Shown here: positions 19,964 to 30,810 of the stretch, in pieces
How positions within the stretch are numbered: position 1 is the stretch's first letter
How the letters are laid out: every line of letters begins with the position of its first letter
Assembly: GCF_000803215.1 (NCBI RefSeq)
Contig: NZ_JSXC01000043.1
Location: 1 to 64,000 of the forward strand
Direction of reading: 5' to 3'
Source: Pectobacterium fontis
Lineage (GTDB): Bacteria > Pseudomonadota > Gammaproteobacteria > Enterobacterales > Enterobacteriaceae
Length of the DNA: 64,000 nt
Program-made: the position numbers and the translations under genes
Notes under the pieces: model-generated
What the model was told of the DNA's origin: nothing
The model's input: the letters and a program-made list of their open reading frames with translations, nothing else
The model's database searches: none

Positions 19964-20701
19964 ATGTTATCCATTTTGCGTTTTTTTATTGTCGTTATAT
20001 TTTCGATTTTGATCTGTGTTTTTGGCTTGTTTTACTGTCTGTTCAGCCCTCGAAATCCCCGCCATGTAGCGACCTTCGGTCATCTTTTTGGGCGCTTGTC
20101 CGTGGTGTTTGGCCTGAAAGTAGAAATGCGGATACCGGAAGACGTGGCGCGTTACGGCAACTGCATCTATATTGCGAATCATCAGAACAATTACGATATG
20201 GTCACGGTATCCAGAGCGGTTCAGCCTCGTACCGTTACCGTGGGTAAGAAAAGCCTGTTGTGGGTTCCGTTTTTCGGGCCGCTTTATTGGCTGACGGGTA
20301 ATCTGCTGATTGACCGTGAAAACCGCGCCAAAGCGCATGGCACCATCGCACAGGTGGTGAAACATATTAAAGAGCGCAATGCGTCGATCTGGATGTTTCC
20401 CGAAGGTACACGCAGCCGTGGACGCGGCCTGCTACCATTCAAAACCGGTGCGTTTCATGCCGCGATTAGCGCAGAAGTGCCGATTGTACCGATTTGTGTT
20501 TCTACCACCAGTAATAAGGTGAAACTGAACCGCTGGAATAACGGTTTGGTTATCGTCGAAATGTTGCCGCCTATTGATACCCGCGCATATACCAAAGATC
20601 AGGTTCGTGAGCTGGCGACACATTGCCATGACGTGATGGCCGCCAAGATTGCGGAGTTGGATGCAGAAGTTGCGGTGCGCGAAGCCGCAGACAAAAAATA
20701 A
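19964..20701 (+). CDS. plsC: PlsC, 1-acyl-sn-glycerol-3-phosphate acyltransferase
   Basis: The 245-residue inner-membrane enzyme converts lysophosphatidic acid to phosphatidic acid in phospholipid synthesis. An N-terminal membrane segment (about residues 3-26) precedes the acyltransferase motifs NHQNNYD (HX4D) near residue 72, the FPEGTRSRG glycerophosphate-binding motif near 145, and VPIVPI near 172. Its position between parC and ftsP is conserved in enterobacteria. It carries its own upstream region after the parC terminator. Confidence 0.97.
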   Translation: MLSILRFFIVVIFSILICVFGLFYCLFSPRNPRHVATFGHLFGRLSVVFGLKVEMRIPEDVARYGNCIYIANHQNNYDMVTVSRAVQPRTVTVGKKSLLWVPFFGPLYWLTGNLLIDRENRAKAHGTIAQVVKHIKERNASIWMFPEGTRSRGRGLLPFKTGAFHAAISAEVPIVPICVSTTSNKVKLNRWNNGLVIVEMLPPIDTRAYTKDQVRELATHCHDVMAAKIAELDAEVAVREAADKK

Positions 20702-20805
20702 ATTTACCCTATTTGTGTTATGCGATTATTTCTTTCGAATACATCGTCGAAATAATTAATCGGCATTTAAACTTTGCTTACGGTTAATGGATTTACGGAG
20801 TCATT

Positions 20806-22221
20806 ATGTCACTCAGCCGACGTCAGTTTATTCAGGCATCGGGCCTTGCGTTATGTGCGGGTATGACGCCGCTGGCGGCAAAGGCCAGTGGTAACCCCAT
20901 CGCATTGCCGATACCGCCATTACTGGAGTCGCGCCGAGGCCAGCCTCTTTTCCTGACCATGCAGCGTGCTCATTGGGCATTTTCTGGCGATCGTAAGACG
21001 TCTATTTGGGGCATCAATGGCCGTTATTTAGGGCCGACGGTACGGGTGTATGACAGTGACGACGTTAAGCTGATTTACAGTAACCGCCTGAATGAGCCGG
21101 TCGCGATGACGATCGGCGGGTTGCAGGTGCCGGGGCCGCTCATGGGCGGCGCGGCGCGTATGATTTCTCCAGGCACCGACTGGTCGCCGGTGCTGCCTAT
21201 TCGTCAGCCATCTGCCACCTGCTGGTATCATGCGAATACCCCGAACCGTATGGCTCCGCATATCTATAACGGGCTGGCCGGACTCTGGCTAGTGGAAGAT
21301 CGCGCCAGTAAATCTTTGCCACTTCCTAATCACTACGGTGTGGATGATTTCCCGTTGATTATTCAGGATAAACGGCTGGATAACTTTGGCGTCCCTATCT
21401 ATAGCCCGCCCTCTAACGGTGGATTTGTGGGGGACTCTCTGTTAATCAACGGTGTCCAGAATCCCTTTGTTGAAGTGTCCCGTGGCTGGGTTCGCCTGAG
21501 GTTGCTGAACGCGTCGAACGCCCGGCGTTACGTGATGCGGTTGAGCGATGGGCGGGCGATGCATGTGATCGCCAGCGATCAAGGGCTGCTCCCTGCTCCG
21601 ATGGCAGTGAACCAGCTTTCTCTTTCCCCCGGTGAACGACGCGAGATTTTGATCGACATGTCGCAAGGTGAGGATGTCACGCTGACGGCAGGCGAGTCGG
21701 CTGGGATTATGGATCGCCTGCGTGGTCTATTTGAGCCTTCCAGTATCCTGATTTCCACCCAGATACTCACGCTGAAGCCGACGGGCCTGTTGCCATTGGT
21801 CACGGATAACCTGCCGATGCGCCTGCTGGCTGACAACATCATTGAAGGCAGCATCAGCCGCACGCGCGAATTCCGTCTGGGTGATAGTTTACCCGGCATC
21901 AACGGCGCGATGTGGGACATGACGCGTGTCGATGTACAAACCCAACTAGGCCGCTGTGAACGCTGGATTATTCACGCTGATACGCCGCAGGCGTTTCATA
22001 TCCAGGGCGTCAAATTCCTGGTGCGTAGTGCGAACGGTGGCCGACCTGCGGTGGAAGACAGCGGCTGGAAAGACACCGTGTGGGTGGATAACGATGTCGA
22101 GCTGCTAGTTTATTTCACGCAGCCATCCTCACTGGCGTTCCCCTTCCTGTATTACAGCCAGACGTTGGAACTGGCCGATCGCGGCTCGACAGGGCAGCTC
22201 ATCGTACAGTCTGCGATGTAA
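20806..22221 (+). CDS. ftsP: FtsP (SufI), Tat-exported cell-division protein
   Basis: The 471-residue precursor starts with a twin-arginine signal (SRRQFIQASG, cleavage near AKA at residue 27). The rest is a three-domain multicopper-oxidase fold that has lost the copper-binding histidine motifs, as in E. coli SufI/FtsP. FtsP is a periplasmic divisome protein that supports division under stress and a classical Tat substrate. It follows plsC by 104 bases and is probably in the same transcription unit. Confidence 0.95.
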   Translation: MSLSRRQFIQASGLALCAGMTPLAAKASGNPIALPIPPLLESRRGQPLFLTMQRAHWAFSGDRKTSIWGINGRYLGPTVRVYDSDDVKLIYSNRLNEPVAMTIGGLQVPGPLMGGAARMISPGTDWSPVLPIRQPSATCWYHANTPNRMAPHIYNGLAGLWLVEDRASKSLPLPNHYGVDDFPLIIQDKRLDNFGVPIYSPPSNGGFVGDSLLINGVQNPFVEVSRGWVRLRLLNASNARRYVMRLSDGRAMHVIASDQGLLPAPMAVNQLSLSPGERREILIDMSQGEDVTLTAGESAGIMDRLRGLFEPSSILISTQILTLKPTGLLPLVTDNLPMRLLADNIIEGSISRTREFRLGDSLPGINGAMWDMTRVDVQTQLGRCERWIIHADTPQAFHIQGVKFLVRSANGGRPAVEDSGWKDTVWVDNDVELLVYFTQPSSLAFPFLYYSQTLELADRGSTGQLIVQSAM

Positions 22222-22551
22222 GCAAGTCTTACCGTTCCCTCTCTTGCTAACCGTCTGACGCGCGGCTTGCTCGTCAGACGGATCTGCTACATGCTTATTG
22301 TGTCAACCGTGCTTCACACAAACCAAAATTAAAGATGCGGAGCCGCGTGGACGATACCTTATAGATGTTGCTATGAATTAAAGGTGAATCGTTGTTTGGC
22401 GGGTGTGCTGTCTCAAGTCTGATGGGTATTAACAACATTTTTTATTACAATAATCTCAGCGTCAGTGCGTTTTGTTTCGCCAGTAAATCAGGTTCACTTT
22501 TGTCTTAACCGGCACGCAGCCAGAATGCTGCGTCACTGAAAAGGCTGCACT
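22222..22551. other. ftsP-GntR intergenic region with hairpin
   Basis: A CCGTCTGAC / GTCAGACGG hairpin at 22251-22281 lies 29 bases past the ftsP stop without a T-run; it may be a 3' stabiliser or weak terminator. The remainder up to 22551 is A/T-rich and presumably holds the GntR promoter. I see no gene. Confidence 0.6.
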
Positions 22552-23289
22552 ATGCGGGAATTACTGCTTTGGGTCAGAGATCAACTGTCTGGAGCGCCGT
22601 CGGCGCCTCGCTATATGCAGCTCGCCTCGTTGCTTGAATCAGGACTCGGCCGCCGGAAGACGTTATCCGGCCAGTTCTTACCCGCGGAAAGATTGATTGC
22701 ACAGCAGTTGGGATTGTCGCGCGTAACGGTTTCCCGTTCTCTGTCGCTGCTGGAAGAAAAAGGGATGATTGTGCGCCAGCAGGGGGTAGGAACCCGCGTG
22801 GCTCAACGGCTGAATTATGCGTTAAGTGCCGACGATGAAGGGTTCACCGCGCTAATTCTGAAACAAGGTGGCGTGGCGGGTAGTCTCTGGCTGGAAAAGG
22901 CAATACAGGTTCCGCCTGCGGCTATTGCCGCAAAAATGTCTTTGCCGGAAGGCGAGGCTGTCACCTATCTGCGACGTGTCCGGCTCAGCAATGGTGAGCC
23001 GGTTTCGCTGGAAACTACCTGGATACCGCAAAAATTCCTCTCCGATCCAGAAGCCCTTGAGCAGTCCCTCTATCAATACTGGATAAGGCACGGGATTACG
23101 CCGGACAAAAAGCGCTATCGCTTCAAAGCGATCTCTTGTGTGGAAGAGGTGGCTGAACTGCTTGGTATCGCGCTGGCGTCACCCGTGCTGTATTGCCAAC
23201 TGCACGTTTATAACGAACGAGGTGAACTGCTGGAATACAGCGAGGCGCATTGCCGTAGCGATGTCTATGAGATTCAGTTTGCCGATTAG
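22552..23289 (+). CDS. GntR/HutC-family transcriptional regulator
   Basis: The 245-residue protein has an N-terminal GntR winged helix (about residues 15-85, with ERLIAQQLGLSRVTVSRSLSLLEEKGMIVRQQGVGTRV) and a C-terminal UTRA effector domain (about 100-240, including EPVSLETTWIP). HutC-subfamily regulators usually sense sugars, phosphosugars or amino-acid derivatives. No catabolic or transport operon adjoins it, so its target cannot be named from context. It is convergent with dkgA across a terminator hairpin. Confidence 0.88.
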   Translation: MRELLLWVRDQLSGAPSAPRYMQLASLLESGLGRRKTLSGQFLPAERLIAQQLGLSRVTVSRSLSLLEEKGMIVRQQGVGTRVAQRLNYALSADDEGFTALILKQGGVAGSLWLEKAIQVPPAAIAAKMSLPEGEAVTYLRRVRLSNGEPVSLETTWIPQKFLSDPEALEQSLYQYWIRHGITPDKKRYRFKAISCVEEVAELLGIALASPVLYCQLHVYNERGELLEYSEAHCRSDVYEIQFAD

Positions 23290-23297
23290 AAAGAAAA

Positions 23298-23322
23298 ATG
23301 CCAGCACGGTGAGGGCTGGCAT
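23298..23322 (-). terminator. dkgA terminator
   Basis: An ATGCCAGC / GCTGGCAT hairpin, read on the minus strand, is followed by TTTTTC. It lies 10 bases beyond the dkgA stop. Confidence 0.82.
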
Positions 23323-23332
23323 CAAAGACGGA

Positions 23333-24160
23333 TTAGTTGTTTTTTGGCTCGTCAGGGTCTGAACCCAGACGCTTCCCGCAGTCGAGCTTGGCGATTTCAC
23401 TCAGTTCGTCTTTATCCAGACGGAAATCAAATACTTCAAAGTTTTCCTTGATACGCGCAGGCGTCACCGATTTAGGGATCACCACCAGCCCAGTGTCCAG
23501 ATGCCAGCGGATCACGATCTGTGCCGGTGTTTTTCCGTATTTGCTCGCCAGTTTACGGATAGTGGGATGGTCGAAAACCCCTTCGCCGCCCTGTGCCAAC
23601 GGGCTCCAGGATTCCGTCTGGATGTGGTGCGTGGCGTTCCAGGAATGGAGCTGTCTTTGCTGGAGAAGCGGGTGCAGTTCGACCTGATCGATAACCGGTA
23701 ATACACCCGTTTCTTCTTTGAGTCGCTGTAAATGGTGAATATGGAAATTACTGACACCGATGCTTTTTGCCAGACCTTGTTCCTGGAGTTTGATTAGCCC
23801 GCGCCAGGCATCCACGAAGGTATTCTGTTGCGGGAGCGGCCAGTGAATCAGGTAGAGATCGACATAGTCTAACCGAAGCTTTTGCAGGCTCTCTTCCAGC
23901 GCTTGTTGAGGAGCGGTGTGATCGCCATTCCACAGCTTGGTAGTGATGAATACCTCTTCACGCGGCAGATTCGCGGAGCGTAGCGCCTGACCGACGGCTT
24001 CTTCGTTCTTATAAATCGCGGCGGTATCAATCGCCCGATAGCCGATGGACAAGGCTTCGGTTACGGCGGTTACTGTGTCCTCACTGCTTGCTCGCCAGAC
24101 ACCCAACCCCAACTGGGGCATGATATTGCCGTCTGCCAGTTTCACTTTCGGTTGCGTCAT
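23333..24160 (-). CDS. dkgA: DkgA (YqhE), 2,5-diketo-D-gluconate reductase A
   Basis: The 275-residue aldo/keto reductase has the family hallmarks: GYRAIDTAAIYKNEEAVG near residues 41-58 (catalytic Asp and Tyr), ITTKLW (catalytic Lys), DLYLIHWP near 105 and the NADPH-binding VIPKSVTPARIKEN near 225. DkgA reduces 2,5-diketogluconate, methylglyoxal and related aldehydes in the cytoplasm. In E. coli it lies beside yqhD and yqhC; here no yqhD is present, and the yqhC-type regulator is 2 kb away, beyond two unrelated genes. Confidence 0.93.
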   Translation of the reverse strand: MTQPKVKLADGNIMPQLGLGVWRASSEDTVTAVTEALSIGYRAIDTAAIYKNEEAVGQALRSANLPREEVFITTKLWNGDHTAPQQALEESLQKLRLDYVDLYLIHWPLPQQNTFVDAWRGLIKLQEQGLAKSIGVSNFHIHHLQRLKEETGVLPVIDQVELHPLLQQRQLHSWNATHHIQTESWSPLAQGGEGVFDHPTIRKLASKYGKTPAQIVIRWHLDTGLVVIPKSVTPARIKENFEVFDFRLDKDELSEIAKLDCGKRLGSDPDEPKNN

Positions 24161-24543
24161 ATCATTCTCCTTTTATATCCGTTAATCCATAAACGTATCA
24201 TAGGGTTAACTGGATGGGGGCCTGTTCATATCACAGACATAAAGGAATGTGATCCCTCACAGGAACAGGCATATGATTTCAGTCTAGTAGAAAATGTGAG
24301 TAGAGAATCAATGGCCCAGTAAATAACAATCGAATCACAACGGGGAAATGAGTATCAACACAGGCTATGCGCACAGCATAAGAATCTGAATGTTACACCC
24401 AATTAAACGCATTGGCATGGCACCCACTCATCGTTGGATATTCATAATCTTCGTCGTATCATGTGGATATCATCATATTGCCTTCTTAGAAAGGATAGTA
24501 TGATAGTGAACAGGAATAGTTCAAATGTAACAGGAGTGTTTAA
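24161..24543. other. A/T-rich region with a nested inverted repeat (dkgA promoter side)
   Basis: This 383-base gap contains an inverted repeat at 24220-24270: outer arms GCCTGTTC (24220-24227) and GAACAGGC (24263-24270), inner arms ATCACA (24230-24235) and TGTGAT (24248-24253). It lies about 60 bases before dkgA, in the place of a promoter or operator. The rest is low-GC and without visible genes; the last 20 bases hold an AGGAG site for the downstream TTG-started gene. Confidence 0.5.
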
Positions 24544-25128
24544 TTGAAACGTTTTATGGGATTATTTTTGGTTTTATTATTAACAGGATGTTCTACAGTT
24601 TCTGACTATAATAAAAACTTAACAGATTATACTGGAGATAAAAAATCGGGTATTGCATTTAATATTGGTTACAATCAGGTCAGGGTTTATCCAGAAACAA
24701 AGAACTGTATTGATCTCTATTCGAAAAATAATGGTTTTATACCGAGAAATGTATTTTCTGGTAGAAAAAATATAGGTATTCCTGACGCCGTAGGGATGAA
24801 AAAAGATAACCAGGAATATTGGGTTAGTGCTAATGACAATCTTGCTATTAGAGTGCTTTATACCGGGGAAACCGGTAGCAAGAATTTATTTTTATCTAAA
24901 GCAACCGTCTCTGAGAGCATCATCACTTTCAAACCTCAGCCTGGCGCATTCTATTATGTTACCGTTGATTTTGAAAATCATAATTTGGCAACGGGAAAAT
25001 ATCTTAGGATTTATCAAATTATTGATGGCGATACAGGGGAGAAACAGCTTAAGCATGTGGAAATCTTGAATATAAAGAACTGTTCTGGACAACGACCTTG
25101 GTATATGAAAGGCGGTGCTGTGATCTAG
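24544..25128 (+). CDS. Orphan A/T-rich putative lipoprotein
   Basis: The 194-residue product begins with a short lipoprotein signal (MKRFMGLFLVLLLTGC, cysteine at residue 16). I do not recognise the mature part. It is moderately charged, predicted mixed alpha/beta, with paired cysteines late in the chain (NC...GQRPW). Translation starts at TTG, 7 bases after AGGAG; the next ATG would remove part of the signal. Codon use is markedly A/T-rich (many AAT, ATT, TTA) compared with its neighbours, suggesting recent transfer. It is isolated between dkgA and the nitroreductase gene, with two hairpins downstream. Confidence 0.75.
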   Translation: MKRFMGLFLVLLLTGCSTVSDYNKNLTDYTGDKKSGIAFNIGYNQVRVYPETKNCIDLYSKNNGFIPRNVFSGRKNIGIPDAVGMKKDNQEYWVSANDNLAIRVLYTGETGSKNLFLSKATVSESIITFKPQPGAFYYVTVDFENHNLATGKYLRIYQIIDGDTGEKQLKHVEILNIKNCSGQRPWYMKGGAVI

Positions 25129-25153
25129 TGGGTTTATTCCCCTATGCCTCATT

Positions 25154-25238
25154 GTATCGGCATGTTATTAAATAGATGACATGTCGATACTATATGAATA
25201 ATTAAAAATCCCGTTTAAATGTTATTAAACAGGATTTT
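25154..25238 (+). terminator. Two consecutive hairpins after the orphan lipoprotein gene
   Basis: The first hairpin (25154-25190) has a 12-base stem, GTATCGGCATGT / ACATGTCGATAC, with one G-U pair. The second (25205-25238) pairs AAAATCC.GTTTAA with TTAAAC.GGATTTT and resembles a terminator usable in both directions. They separate the convergent lipoprotein and nitroreductase genes. Confidence 0.6.
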
Positions 25239-25294
25239 CTAAAAAAGCACGTCGATAGCGATGATTTCACCGTCAAGGTGAACGTTAATATCGG

Positions 25295-26035
25295 TTATTT
25301 GTCCAGTTTAAAGCCTTGTTGGAGGATCGCAGGTAAGACTTTCGGGAAATAAATGTGCTGATAGTAGCTGGCGGTGTTGTCACCCCAGTTGTCGCCGTCT
25401 GTGCGGCCAGTTTGCTGCCAGTGTGTCACCAACGTGTGGTTATATTGTTCAATCGCCGTAGGCAGAACATCCTGATGGTAAGTTTCATCATGGCGGAAGG
25501 AGTTGAGCGGCAGACGTGGTTTCTGATGCGCTGGAGTATCCACATAGCCGATGGCGACGCCCGCGACGGGAAACGTCAGTTCAGGAAGCGCCAGTAAGTC
25601 GATCATCGCTTGCGGGTCGCGGCGAATGCCGCCAATTGGCACGATGCCCAATCCAAATGAGCGTGCCGCGGCCATCAGCGTGCCGAGCGCAATGCCAACG
25701 TCCGTTGTGCCAGCGATCAGGCTTTCAATACTTTCATGGGCATGCTGTTGTTTACCGCTCATGGCAATTCCGACCTGCGTTTTATGCATGTCCAACACCA
25801 CAGTAATGAAGACGGGAGCCTTAGCAATCCATGGCTGGCCGCCAGCCAGTTCGGCAATGCGAGCTTTGCGTTCCGGGTCGCGGGTGACGACGAGCGACAC
25901 CTGCTGAGAGTTTACGGATGTCGGTGCCAGATGGGCTGACTGAATAATGGCATCCAGCACGTCATCAGGAATCGTTTTATCAAGATAGCTACGTTCACTG
26001 CGGTGTGAGGTGAACAGTTCAATGGTTTTATTCAT
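25295..26035 (-). CDS. Nitroreductase-family (NfsA-like) flavoprotein
   Basis: The 246-residue protein belongs to the FMN-dependent NfsA/FRP group: the SHRSERSYLDKTIPDD N-terminus, the SAHLAPTSVNSQQ segment that contacts FMN, GTTDVGIALGTLMAAARSFGLGIVPIGGIR in the middle, and a C-terminal tail specific to NADPH-dependent members. It probably reduces quinones, nitroaromatics or flavins. I place the start at MNKTIELFTSHRS (26035), because it aligns with NfsA and has a GGGAAAAG site; the frame stays open for 23 codons upstream. It is divergent from the AraC-type regulator, a likely controller. Confidence 0.87.
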   Translation of the reverse strand: MNKTIELFTSHRSERSYLDKTIPDDVLDAIIQSAHLAPTSVNSQQVSLVVTRDPERKARIAELAGGQPWIAKAPVFITVVLDMHKTQVGIAMSGKQQHAHESIESLIAGTTDVGIALGTLMAAARSFGLGIVPIGGIRRDPQAMIDLLALPELTFPVAGVAIGYVDTPAHQKPRLPLNSFRHDETYHQDVLPTAIEQYNHTLVTHWQQTGRTDGDNWGDNTASYYQHIYFPKVLPAILQQGFKLDK

Positions 26036-26246
26036 GTCTTTTCCCGTGAGATGAGGGGATGAATGTATGCTCAGTATTGTCATCAACCTTGGGAAGCGCT
26101 TCAATGCACATTTCTGTTTGCTTGTTGCCTATTTCTACAAAGCAGAGGAGAAAATGATGATAATGATTCGCGGGTGTGTCATTTTGCTTCTTCTGCCAGG
26201 AGAGAGGCTCCAGGCAGGAAATGTGAACCAGTAGCGAGATAACACC

Positions 26247-27188
26247 ATGTCGATGGAAGGTCAGCCACAACATACAACGCCGCAGACCGTGCGGCAACGC
26301 ATCGTGCAGCAGGCAATACGTTGCTCAACCAAAAGCTGGGTCACGCCTTCGCCGGTGCCACAGGTCAGTATCCTTTATACCGAGCAGCATTATCCGCGTG
26401 TGCCCGTGATGTATGAACCGACGATCGTCATTATTTTTCAGGGAAAAAAAATTGGCTATCTGGGGGGCAAAACGTTCCAGTACGACTCAGAAAACTACCT
26501 ATTGATGACAGTACCACTGCCGTTCGAATGCGAGACGATAGCCAGTGTTGAGAACCCGCTGGTCGGTATCGCCATCCGTATTGATATCCAGATGCTACAG
26601 GATTTGCTAATCGACATCGGCGATGATGACAGCGTGATCCGCCCCAGTTCGGGTACATGTGGGGTAAATAGCGCGCCGCTGACCGATGAGATTCTGTGTG
26701 CCGTGGAACGGCTGCTGGATGCGATGGGGAACCCGCGTGATGCCCGCGTGCTGGGACCGACGGTGGTGCGCGAGATTATCTATCATATGCTTTGCGGTAA
26801 ACGTGGTGCGGCATTACAGGCGCTGGTGAGTCGGCATACGCACTTCAGCCAGATTGCCAAATCTCTGCGACGTATCGAAAATCACTATGCTGATAGCTTG
26901 AGTGTTGAACAACTGGCGGCGGAAGTGAACATGAGCGTCTCTGCGTTTCATCACAACTTCAAGGCTGTCACCAATACATCGCCATTGCAGTACCTGAAAT
27001 CTTACCGCTTGCACAAAGCTCGCGTGATGATGATCAACGAGGGGCTGAGAGCGGGCGTCGCGGCCACTCGTGTTGGTTATGAGAGCGTGTCGCAGTTTAG
27101 CCGGGAATTTAAGCGCTATTTCGGCGCGACGCCGAGCGATGAAATCACGAGATTAAATGCCAGTAATCTGGCGGTTGAGGAAAACTGA
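26247..27188 (+). CDS. yqhC: AraC-family regulator in the yqhC position
   Basis: The 313-residue protein combines an AraC_N cupin-like domain (about residues 30-180, PF06719 type) with two C-terminal AraC helix-turn-helix units (about 205-300: [23 protein letters not shown] and [24 protein letters not shown]). E. coli YqhC has this architecture, sits just before yghB and activates yqhD-dkgA in response to aldehydes. Here it also precedes yghB, but the divergent neighbour is a nitroreductase gene. The symbol rests on position and domain type and is less sure than the family. Confidence 0.72.
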
Positions 27189-27214
27189 AGGCAAAAACGC
27201 GTGTGGTTACCTGC

Positions 27215-27874
27215 TTAGGCGATTGCGCGTTTTTTACGCCACACCATGACCGCCATGCCGACAAGACCGCTGACCAGTAAAATAACGGGGAGCAGGATCA
27301 GCGCCGTCATGACCTGATCTTCATAGCGTTTGACCAGCGGGATATGGCTAAGCGCATAGCCGAGCGTGACAATGCCCCCGACCCACAGCAGCCCGCTGAG
27401 CCAGTTGAAAATCTGAAAGCGCGTATTGTTTAATCCAGAAATGCCCGCCATCGTTGGCAGCAGCGTGCGGATGAACGCTAAAAAGCGACCAACCAACAGC
27501 GCCATCAGGCCGTGGCGGTGGAACAGATGGTGGGCGCGCTGGTGGTAATGGGCGGGAAGCTGTAACAGCCAACCTTTTACCAACCGGGTATCGCTCAGCC
27601 AGCGCCCTTGCAGGTAGCTGAGCCAGCAGCCGAGGCTGGCGGCGATCGTGAGCAGAATCATTGTGGGTAAAAAGCTCATCACGCCTTTGGCAATCATGGC
27701 GCCAGTGAGCAATAGCAGGCTATCACCGGGCAAAAAAGAAGCGGGCAGCAGGCCATTCTCCAGAAACAGCGTCGTAAACAAAATGCCGTAAATCACCCAA
27801 ATAACATGGGGATCGGTCAATGCAGTAAAATCTTGCTGCCAGAGCGCCTGAATAATGTCGTGAACCACACTCAT
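27215..27874 (-). CDS. yghB: YghB, DedA-family membrane protein
   Basis: This 219-residue integral membrane protein is very close to E. coli YghB. It has [23 protein letters not shown] in the first third and [19 protein letters not shown] near residue 130, the two reentrant-type DedA signatures with the conserved Glu and Arg. YghB and its paralogue YqjA are needed for envelope integrity, drug resistance and normal division, probably acting as proton-dependent or lipid-linked transporters. It is convergent with the AraC regulator and lies between that gene and metC. Confidence 0.94.
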
Positions 27875-28117
27875 ATTACTTCTCGCCAGTGACGATATAC
27901 ACTATCTCTCAGGCCATGGCGATGAAACGCTGGGTCACCTGAAATTTACTGTCTATCATGCCCTAAAATCGGTTGGGCAAAACGCCTTGCCGCATGATGA
28001 GAATACGGCAGGGGGTTAATGCTAAATTTGGGTTAAGATAACGCCGTTTTTTGGTAGGCGTTGACTCATGACTATCATAACGCATTACCCACCACACCGC
28101 AGAGGAAATCAAGGCGC

Positions 28118-28135
28118 GACGGCTTTATGGCCGTC
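28118..28135 (-). terminator. Hairpin downstream of metC
   Basis: A GACGGC / GCCGTC hairpin with a 6-base loop lies 22 bases beyond the metC stop. No T-run follows on the minus strand, so it is only a candidate 3'-end structure. Confidence 0.4.
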
Positions 28136-28157
28136 ACACTTCCTATATTTTTTCTTC

Positions 28158-29372
28158 CTATTCTTTGCCAGCGTGTGGTGTAAGGGAGTGCAGCCTGCTG
28201 AACCCCGCCGCCAGATCGTCGATCAGATCGTCACTGTCTTCAAGTCCAATATGTAACCGAATAAGTGTACCGGTAAAGTCCACACCGCTTACCGGGCGGA
28301 TGGCTGCCAGCTCTTCAGGCTGATTCGCCAGAATCAGTGATTCAAAGCCGCCCCAGGAGTACGCCATGCTGAAGTGTTCAAAATGATCCAGATAGTGAGC
28401 CAACGCTTCTTTGCTTAATTTCTCTTTCAACACAAAGGAGAACAAGCCGTTGCAGCCGTTAAAATCGCGAACGTAAAACTCATGCCCTTTGCATTCAGGT
28501 AAAGCTGGGTGGTTAACCACGGCCACTTCTGGTTGCTCGGCCAGCCATGTCGCAATGCGGATGCTGCTTTCCTGATGCTGTTTGAGTCTAACGCCCAGAG
28601 TGCGCAGGCCACGGCTGGCGACATACGCGGTATCTGCATCCACCATTTGTCCCATTAGGTAAGAATGCTCACGAAGTTGCGCCCAGCAGCGTTCGTTAGC
28701 GACAGCCGTACCTATCATGGCATCGGAATGACCGACAATATATTTGGTGGCAGACTGAATGGAGATATCAATATCGAAGTCGAGTGCTTTGAATAAAATA
28801 CCCGCCGCCCAGGTATTATCAATCATGACAATAATCTCGGGATTGATGCGGCGTACGGCTTGGACGATGGCTGGCACATCGTGTACTTCCATGGTGATGG
28901 AGCCGGGCGATTCGAGAAAGACGACTGTGGTATTGGGCTGGATCAGCCCGGCAATATCGGCACCAATGAGCGGATCGAAATAGGTGGTGCTGACGTTCAT
29001 CTTACTGAGGACTTTATTACAGAAATCCTGCGTGGGTTCATAGGCCGAACCCGTTACCAGCACATGATCGCCCGCGGCGACGAAAGAGAGAATCGCGTTA
29101 GAGATAGCCGCGGCACCGCACGGGTACAACACACAGCCTGCACCGCCTTCCAGTTCCACCATCGCTTCCTGAAACGAAAAGTGAGTCAGCGTGCCGCGAC
29201 GACCATAGAACAGTGCGCCTTTGGCACGGTTAATGGTCGCGTGTTTTTTGTCCTGCACGGTATCGAATACCAGAGAGGACGCGCGCTGAATAACGGGGTT
29301 TACGGAGCCGTGAGTGAATGCCTTGCGGCGTCCTGCGGCGACTAGTGCAGTTGCCGTTTTTTTGCTTGTCAT
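28158..29372 (-). CDS. metC: MetC, cystathionine beta-lyase
   Basis: The 404-residue PLP enzyme of the Cys/Met metabolism family converts cystathionine to homocysteine, ammonia and pyruvate in methionine synthesis. The PLP-binding lysine lies in [11 protein letters not shown] near residue 210, and the N-terminal [14 protein letters not shown] matches E. coli MetC. The ATG at 29372 aligns with the E. coli start; an in-frame GTG two codons upstream is better spaced from AAGG and remains possible. It is divergent from exbB, the same arrangement as in E. coli. Confidence 0.96.
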
Positions 29373-29799
29373 AACCACTATTACCTTTTCTATTCGATCC
29401 TGCCGGATGACCCAACACGCCAGATATTCCCGACAGTGACAGTGTGAGGAAACAAGGGTGCGTTATTCGATGTATTAACCTACGTTATCACGGCTTGGGC
29501 GGTGTGTGGGTTTGAGTGGAATAAGATTGGGTGTAGATGAAAACATTTCAGGTAACCACCGGTAGGAAAGTGTGGTGGCGACGCCAATTAGTCGAGTGTA
29601 TGTTTTTCCTGCCGATAGGCAGGTAATACCCCCAGCAACCCTTACAGAATGCAAGGAAAAGTGTGTTATCTGGCGTAAATAATAATGAGAACAACTATCA
29701 ATTCGTTCAGGGTTTGGTATCATTTCAGGCTGCGTTATTGCGGCATTATACCTGTGGGTATGTGCGGATATGGTACTGAATGAATGGTGGAGGCACAGC
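29373..29799. other. metC-exbB divergent regulatory region
   Basis: This 427-base gap holds the metC promoter at its left end and the exbB promoter with a Fur-like box near its right end. I found no convincing MetJ box by eye and no gene; the long opposite-strand frame entering it is antisense to exbB. Confidence 0.6.
29681..29699 (+). promoter_or_regulatory. Fur-like box of exbBD
   Basis: The 19 bases AATAATGAGAACAACTATC match the Fur consensus at 14 positions by my count. The site lies about 120 bases before the exbB start, where an iron-repressed operator is expected. Confidence 0.65.
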
Positions 29800-30810
29800 G
29801 TGAAGACGGCTGTCAGTAATATGACTCGCCAGGTGTTAACAACCTGGCAAAAAATATGTGGCGCGTTTAGCGCATTTTCCCGTAGCGTGTTAGTTATCCT
29901 GCTATGTTCGGCGGGACTAAGTGGAAATGCGTTGGCGGCTCCGGCAAGCACGCCGTTGTCGACACAGAATGCTGCGCCAGCCGCGCAGCCTGCGGCTACG
30001 TCCCCTTCTGCTCGTGTGACGACCGATGCACAAGCTCCGGCGTCAGCGCTCACGCTTCCTGCCAGTGCGGCACCGGGCACCAATAACCTGATGAAAACCG
30101 ATTTGTCCGTTTGGGGCATGTACCAGCACGCGGATGCCGTGGTGAAAACGGTGATGATCGGTTTGCTGCTGGCTTCCGTCATTACCTGGGCGATCTTCTT
30201 CAGCAAAAGCGTCACCATGTCTGGTGCGAAACGTCGTCTGCGCCGTGAATATCTGGCGCTGGAACAGGCGAAAACATTGGATGATGCGCTGGAAACCGCA
30301 GAGATATTCAAAGCAGGCAGCGTCGCGCAGCAACTGCTGGTGGATGCGCAGAACGAACTGGAACTTTCCGCACGTTCGGATGACAACAACGGAATTAAAG
30401 AACGCACCGCATTTCGTCTGGAACGTCGCGTGGCGGCTACCGGTCGTCATATGGGGCGTGGCAATGGCTATCTGGCAACGGTTGGGGCGGTTGCACCGTT
30501 CGTGGGGCTGTTTGGTACGGTATGGGGCATCATGAACAGCTTCATCGGTATCGCACAGACGCAAACCACCAACCTGGCGGTGGTCGCGCCGGGGATCGCG
30601 GAAGCGCTGCTGGCGACGGCAATCGGTCTGGTTGCTGCTATTCCTGCGGTAGTCATCTATAACGTCTTCGCGCGCGCCATTGCGAGCTACAAAGCGATAG
30701 TCGGCGATGTGGCGGCTCAGGTGCTGCTGCTGCAAAGTCGCGATCTCGACGTGGCGGCCAGCAGTGATAACCGGACGTCTTCGGCGGCGCAAAAATTGCG
30801 GGTGGGTTAA
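29800..30810 (+). CDS. exbB: ExbB, TonB-system proton-channel subunit with long N-terminus
   Basis: The 336-residue product has an N-terminal export signal-like segment (about residues 24-44, ending ALAAPAS) and an Ala/Pro/Thr-rich spacer to about residue 95. The MotA/TolQ/ExbB core follows with three membrane helices (MIGLLLASVITWAIFFSKS; YLATVGAVAPFVGLFGTVWGIM; EALLATAIGLVAAIPAVVIYN). With ExbD it uses the proton gradient to energise TonB. I chose GTG at 29800 because GGTGGAGG precedes it at good spacing; an ATG at 29770 lacks a clear site. It is longer than E. coli ExbB (244 residues). Confidence 0.92.
   Translation: MKTAVSNMTRQVLTTWQKICGAFSAFSRSVLVILLCSAGLSGNALAAPASTPLSTQNAAPAAQPAATSPSARVTTDAQAPASALTLPASAAPGTNNLMKTDLSVWGMYQHADAVVKTVMIGLLLASVITWAIFFSKSVTMSGAKRRLRREYLALEQAKTLDDALETAEIFKAGSVAQQLLVDAQNELELSARSDDNNGIKERTAFRLERRVAATGRHMGRGNGYLATVGAVAPFVGLFGTVWGIMNSFIGIAQTQTTNLAVVAPGIAEALLATAIGLVAAIPAVVIYNVFARAIASYKAIVGDVAAQVLLLQSRDLDVAASSDNRTSSAAQKLRVG

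Follow-up and report, generated by a model that had tools for sequence, protein, structure and literature searches.

What is a lone A/T-rich lipoprotein gene doing between dkgA and a yqhC-like regulator gene in Pectobacterium fontis, how did it come to stand there, and what might it do? The locus lies in the window, the 64-kb stretch of contig NZ_JSXC01000043.1 to which all open reading frame (ORF) calls and coordinates refer; the genome is labelled G000 and is compared here with those of 24 congeners. The features at issue are listed below, with the names dkgA and yqhC taken from the first-pass annotation, the former having no model search behind it.

23333..24160, minus strand: dkgA, aldo-keto reductase gene, native flank (protein 94-95% identical in G016, G011, and G015)
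24295..25290, no strand: foreign segment of 35.5% GC occupying the yqhD site and some of the yqhD-dkgA spacer (blastn boundaries against congeners)
24531..24536, plus strand: Shine-Dalgarno site CAGGAG (from sequence; aligned in two relatives)
24544..25128, plus strand: lipoprotein gene with TTG start, 194 aa (Cys16 lipobox, Ser17 at +2, Cys55, Cys180)
25149..25197, no strand: long hairpin 3' of the focal ORF (25126-25250 folded as one stretch, z -7.3)
25204..25239, minus strand: terminator-like hairpin followed by a T-rich tail, 3' of the nitroreductase gene (fold and sequence matches)
25298..26035, minus strand: nitroreductase gene, native flank (Pfam Nitroreductase, 2.6e-20; 93-97% identical in 24/24 congeners)
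26247..27188, plus strand: AraC-type regulator gene, yqhC-like (Pfam AraC_N and HTH_18)

The reading of this gene as a lipoprotein gene with a TTG start and its own Shine-Dalgarno site, put forward by the first-pass annotation, holds up. The N-terminus, MKRFMGLFLVLLLTGC, has the basic n-region, hydrophobic stretch, and cysteine-bearing lipobox (L-T-G-C16) of a type II signal peptide; G15-C16 is invariant in all 18 aligned family members, and the Pfam model LPAM_1 scores 15.2 bits, under its cut-off of 20. The basic n-region is present only with TTG as the start, AGGAG lies 7 nt ahead of this codon, and the same TTG start is common to both closest relatives (G002 and G019), preceded by AGGAG or GGGAG and opening the basic n-regions MKFL and MRFF, although the G002 gene has a further in-frame ATG upstream, which was taken for alignment A1. 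The composition of the focal ORF sets it apart from its neighbours, as had been claimed: its GC (34.7%) and third-position GC (29.9%) are the lowest among 50 ORFs of the window (150 aa or longer, overlaps removed; mean GC 53.3%, sd 3.7, focal ORF included), the next lowest GC being 45.9%. The frame is open over 194 codons, and simple counting gives dN/dS values of 0.154 against G019 and 0.193 against G002; the ORF is more than a chance one, and the gene is under purifying selection, in line with the earlier view that it is intact rather than decayed. Promoter-like matches number 7, about what chance gives (shuffled mean 5.2).

To establish what occupies this place elsewhere, the nitroreductase locus was compared across all 25 genomes of the genus. 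In each of the 24 congeners, the gene next after the nitroreductase gene encodes a 387-aa YqhD, 97.4-100% identical to the query, yet yqhD is absent from the window, with no remnant by tblastn, and a true YqhD is absent from the entire G000 assembly, in which the best YqhD-like proteins are 29%, 28%, and 23% identical. On the dkgA side, blastn homology ends at 24294 in 19/24 congener loci, the other 5 having no match there; with wider DNA, the same end is found in 3 of these 5 (G016, G011, and G015), the sequence compared for G007 and G001 falling short of dkgA. On the other side, all 24 congeners match again from 25278 or 25290 on, at the first codons of yqhD. Given these boundaries, about 1.0 kb fills the stretch where congeners have yqhD and some of the spacer, and the lipoprotein gene very probably stands where yqhD was in this species, which is represented by one genome. 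The first-pass annotation, which had the gene splitting a dkgA-yqhC neighbourhood, was right that it lies between those genes but missed both the loss of yqhD and the island hot spot described below. According to PMC8262776, yqhD and dkgA of E. coli are activated by YqhC, and E. coli YqhD guards against glutaraldehyde and, by the work cited, against other aldehydes. Compared with this operon, dkgA, the nitroreductase gene, and the AraC-type regulator gene remain here, but yqhD is gone, replaced by a lipoprotein gene that points the other way. An exchange of this kind is not described in the titles and abstract openings of the literature surveyed.

Within the foreign segment, the 125 nt that begin with the stop codon (25126-25250) fold at -39.6 kcal/mol (z -7.3) and contain two hairpins, in agreement with the downstream hairpins noted earlier. 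The terminator-like one, read on the minus strand, may part dkgA from upstream transcription. Look-alikes of this terminator-like sequence of about 40 nt (25204-25243) occur in 14/24 congeners, several per genome in some, counting matches that cover query positions 76-115 or nearly so. The upstream 256 nt of the segment have no match elsewhere in the 25 genus genomes, and short matches of its downstream part to LysR-type genes were judged to be chance. A short frame, MSINTGYAHSIRI, at 24348-24389, 5' of the focal gene, looks like a remnant.

The same spot is occupied by other DNA in several congeners. The dkgA-yqhD spacer is short in 19/24; past yqhD, the five congeners unmatched on the dkgA side have different DNA, and in four of the 24, genes of type VI islands (Hcp, VgrG, PAAR, or Rhs) adjoin yqhD on the dkgA side (loci L157, L158, L159, and L161 for G016, G011, G007, and G001). 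The order in G016 is dkgA, Hcp, VgrG, further ORFs, a PAAR-type protein, and yqhD, and that in G011 is dkgA, Hcp, VgrG, further ORFs, and yqhD; G007 has part of a VgrG and further ORFs ahead of yqhD up to the contig start, and G001 has an Rhs protein, more Rhs pieces, and transposase-like ORFs (by eye) ahead of yqhD, dkgA not being reached. The fifth, G015, has a 519-bp spacer free of Hcp-, VgrG-, PAAR-, and Rhs-type genes. Identities were assigned by PDB sequence matches and by tblastn between islands, the best PDB chains reaching 1.4e-92 for Hcp, 1.4e-103 for VgrG, 1.1e-61 for the VgrG part, 1.2e-122 for Rhs, and 1.4e-27 for the PAAR-type tip (4jiw_D, which we take to be a PAAR protein). The named island genes and the focal gene share the plus strand. 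On this comparison, the dkgA-yqhD site in Pectobacterium is a type VI island hot spot. Since yqhD is full length in all four island congeners, its loss is a separate step. The foreign segment has no DNA in common with the congener islands apart from the native flanks, and no relatives of Hcp, VgrG, PAAR, or Rhs were found by tblastn in the window, in two further 20-kb stretches of the contig, or around five relatives of the focal subtype.

The mature sequence matched no known family in the scans made, in keeping with the first description: neither the focal protein (Pfam, NCBIfam, PHROGs, PADLOC, and PDB sequences) nor 18 family members (Pfam) gave a convincing match, the focal profile had no useful match among PDB sequences, and no clear homologue in a known family emerged from the family-model scans. 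Hits to Mu-transpos_C (14/18 members, best 0.003; L033 scoring 17.2 bits, below the cut-off of 21.7) and Fungal_lectin (0.0013, one member) were taken as chance, and that to NCBIfam LvhB7 (0.0038, 16.9 bits against 70, residues 1-22) as signal-peptide similarity. The gene is nevertheless no orphan, contrary to its first description, since relatives occur in 22/24 other Pectobacterium genomes, in a sample of the bacterial family (19/392 genomes at E <= 0.001, spanning 14/154 genera, own genus included), and on 12 plasmid records. Within the genus, family matches are found in 23/25 genomes, own included, G009 and G013 being without. Samples of the order and of the class, which overlap with each other and with the family sample, gave matches in 4/394 genomes and in 1/369 (the own genome). 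The lipoprotein family seems to be centred in Enterobacterales. No useful match was returned by tblastn searches of plasmids and phages with the focal protein, by plasmid searches with a Pantoea sister or the partner lipoprotein described below, by searches of viral contigs, or by DNA searches of E. coli genomes.

The focal subtype is found in G000, G002, and G019 within the genus and in three more genera (L121-L123, one of these genomes being 49% complete). In a tree of 24 chosen rows, for which long-branch warnings were issued with L123 among the flagged rows, these six form one clade (98/97), and a branch of 15 rows has support of 100/100. A sister form is present in 22/24 congeners (the G014 copy is truncated) and absent from G000; it also occurs in Samsonia, Dickeya, two Pantoea, and Pseudomonas marginalis. 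These sister lipoproteins, 31-37% identical to the focal protein, share its lipobox and cysteine layout and mostly its FKPxxGxxYY motif (FRP in some), but they are shorter (183 aa), usually paired with a second lipoprotein gene, located elsewhere, and less A/T-rich. GC is 35.6% and 37.8% in the two closest relatives and 40.5-49.0% in 14 measured sister and distant genes; because the subtype members from other genera have 37.7%, 43.6%, and 49.5%, A/T-richness was rejected as a trait of the whole subtype. The two mature cysteines are retained in 23/24 chosen rows. Judged by the shared clade and this cysteine layout, the focal protein belongs to an undescribed lipoprotein family.

A distant branch, found in part on plasmids, accounts for the 12 plasmid records; these are the 'SLEDYKGSDAARIR' lipoproteins encoded on plasmids of Pantoea, Rahnella, Citrobacter, and Mixta (annotated hypothetical protein). 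It is very divergent, stands apart in the tree, and keeps the cysteine layout except in Mixta; its kinship with the focal family is given by an hhalign probability of 97.5 over 145 columns, the signal peptide being part of the match, and by the two mature cysteines kept in 23/24 rows. Members lie within about 1 kb of repA in 2/5 plasmid regions read, namely, L100 (6001-6555) and L101 (5956-6474), on IncF-type plasmids of Citrobacter and Mixta.

The subtype seems mobile as well, its closest relatives occupying different sites. In G002 and G019, the copies sit between a MerR gene and yaiL (Pfam names; we take yaiL to be the name that goes with DUF2058), and no subtype copy is present within 1.5 kb on each side of 23 other yaiL loci. 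Homology of the focal DNA to these copies is restricted to the Shine-Dalgarno site and the ORF.

The two AlphaFold models are strand-rich, but pLDDT is 58.1 for the focal protein and 63.9 for the Pseudomonas marginalis sister (34% identical), and Foldseek gave no match at E <= 0.001 for either. In VIA-align, the top row is human HGSNAT (Z 7.3 for the focal and 6.3 for the sister model), followed among others by transthyretin (5.4 and 4.7) and TssJ1 (3zhn; Z 5.4, rmsd 3.4, 94 aligned, and Z 6.0, rmsd 3.2, 95 aligned). None of these model comparisons reaches a trusted level, and the rows for HGSNAT, PepT, and pore-forming toxins were put down to widespread beta-sandwich arrangements. Low-confidence as they are, the models suggest that the mature part is a transthyretin-like beta-sandwich.

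What, then, might the protein do? The account tentatively preferred here, given a little less than an even chance, is that an orphan immunity lipoprotein, anchored in the outer membrane, was gained at an island hot spot and that yqhD was the price. In this view, yqhD would have given way at the type VI island site to one mobile lipoprotein gene, left behind or landed without its toxin. Cleavage and lipidation at Cys16 would be followed by sorting to the outer membrane, as directed by a Ser at position +2; the mature beta-sandwich, closed by a Cys55-Cys180 disulfide, would bind and block in the periplasm a toxin delivered by neighbours. A lipoprotein gene at the spot of sister toxin islands may be a lone immunity gene, its location being that expected of one, with island genes on the same side of yqhD in 4/24 congeners, and it is because congeners carry other DNA and type VI islands at this site that this account is rated higher. 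No toxin gene was recognised by eye beside the focal gene among the ORFs of 20000-30000. Some relatives do lie in or near toxin arrays. In L034, a PT-VENN pre-toxin protein (Pfam 5.4e-20) is encoded about 4 kb upstream of the member, three ORFs without a Pfam match lying between; L164, of the focal clade, and L130 are downstream of VENN/VDNN-type ORFs (by eye); G002 has an Hcp-like gene (30% identical, 7e-18) about 4 kb from its sister gene; and a Fic protein is encoded in G019. Similar membrane proteins of 72-76 aa (by eye) are encoded upstream of members of two branches (L034 4870-5100 and L130 727-945). Orphan immunity genes gained without a toxin system are known, and those of type VI or contact-dependent systems are described, in PMC8632748, for Bacteroidales and Vibrio. 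The focal gene is likewise single and mobile, with no toxin system nearby, and stands at an island hot spot; it differs in that its sister form is broadly present and no cognate toxin was recognised near it.

The breadth of the sister form, in 22/24 congeners, is wide for an immunity gene and speaks for another account, in which gene and replacement are the same but the lipoprotein has a general envelope or stress role with no link to toxins, its sister form working with a second lipoprotein marked by an FDKYA motif. This is the main rival, although we would sooner expect it to be wrong. The second lipoprotein gene is convergent with the sister gene, across a gap of 43-51 bp, in 12/14 loci from five genera (L043 is without it and L046 has a fragment) and is present also in L120; several members, moreover, have ordinary neighbour genes (L162, L163, L165, L166, and L033, by eye), and beside the sister pair of Pantoea agglomerans (L033), none of the genes was recognised as a toxin gene. 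However, the partner is missing beside all six focal-subtype members within the sequence compared, G002 and G019 having it with their sister copy, and it is absent altogether from G000; G013 has the partner without a family lipoprotein, and the two families are unrelated (hhalign probability 7.1, signal peptide only). Of the partner ORFs (loci L033-L045), 3 were compared with Pfam and gave nothing significant, as did 2 compared with NCBIfam. At the ydiK locus of G000 (contig C34, L111 2056-2442), the 128-aa neighbour is kept, and the lipoprotein pair of the congeners is missing.

A broader form of the preferred immunity account takes the three branches as one family of stand-alone mobile transthyretin-like lipoproteins, a portable periplasmic shield against injected toxins that would shuttle among toxin-island hot spots and plasmids of the IncF type and have been fixed here at the price of YqhD; so much together is rather unlikely.

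That the protein instead serves a secretion machine as a TssJ-like accessory lipoprotein is improbable. The lipobox, the weak predicted likeness to TssJ1 given above, and the island hot spot could be read in this way, TssJ being, according to PMC3213119, an outer-membrane lipoprotein with a transthyretin fold. Nevertheless, the Z scores are at the level of common arrangements, the gene lies outside a secretion cluster, and the Hcp, VgrG, and PAAR searches around subtype members were negative. The TssJ/SciN family is missing from the Pfam scans of 18 members. Least credible of all is an assembly artefact behind the yqhD exchange, for although the assembly is a draft of 105 contigs, the segment lies inside a 115-kb contig, each junction meets the native genes in register, the nearest relatives of the lipoprotein are from Pectobacterium, and contamination is listed as 0.05.

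What the locus adds is a lipoprotein family that is constrained yet mobile and has no curated model, a hot spot for type VI islands at dkgA-yqhD, and the clean loss of a gene kept by 24/24 congeners. The loss of YqhD should lower the aldehyde tolerance of P. fontis, and if the protective role holds, several 'hypothetical protein' entries would gain meaning.
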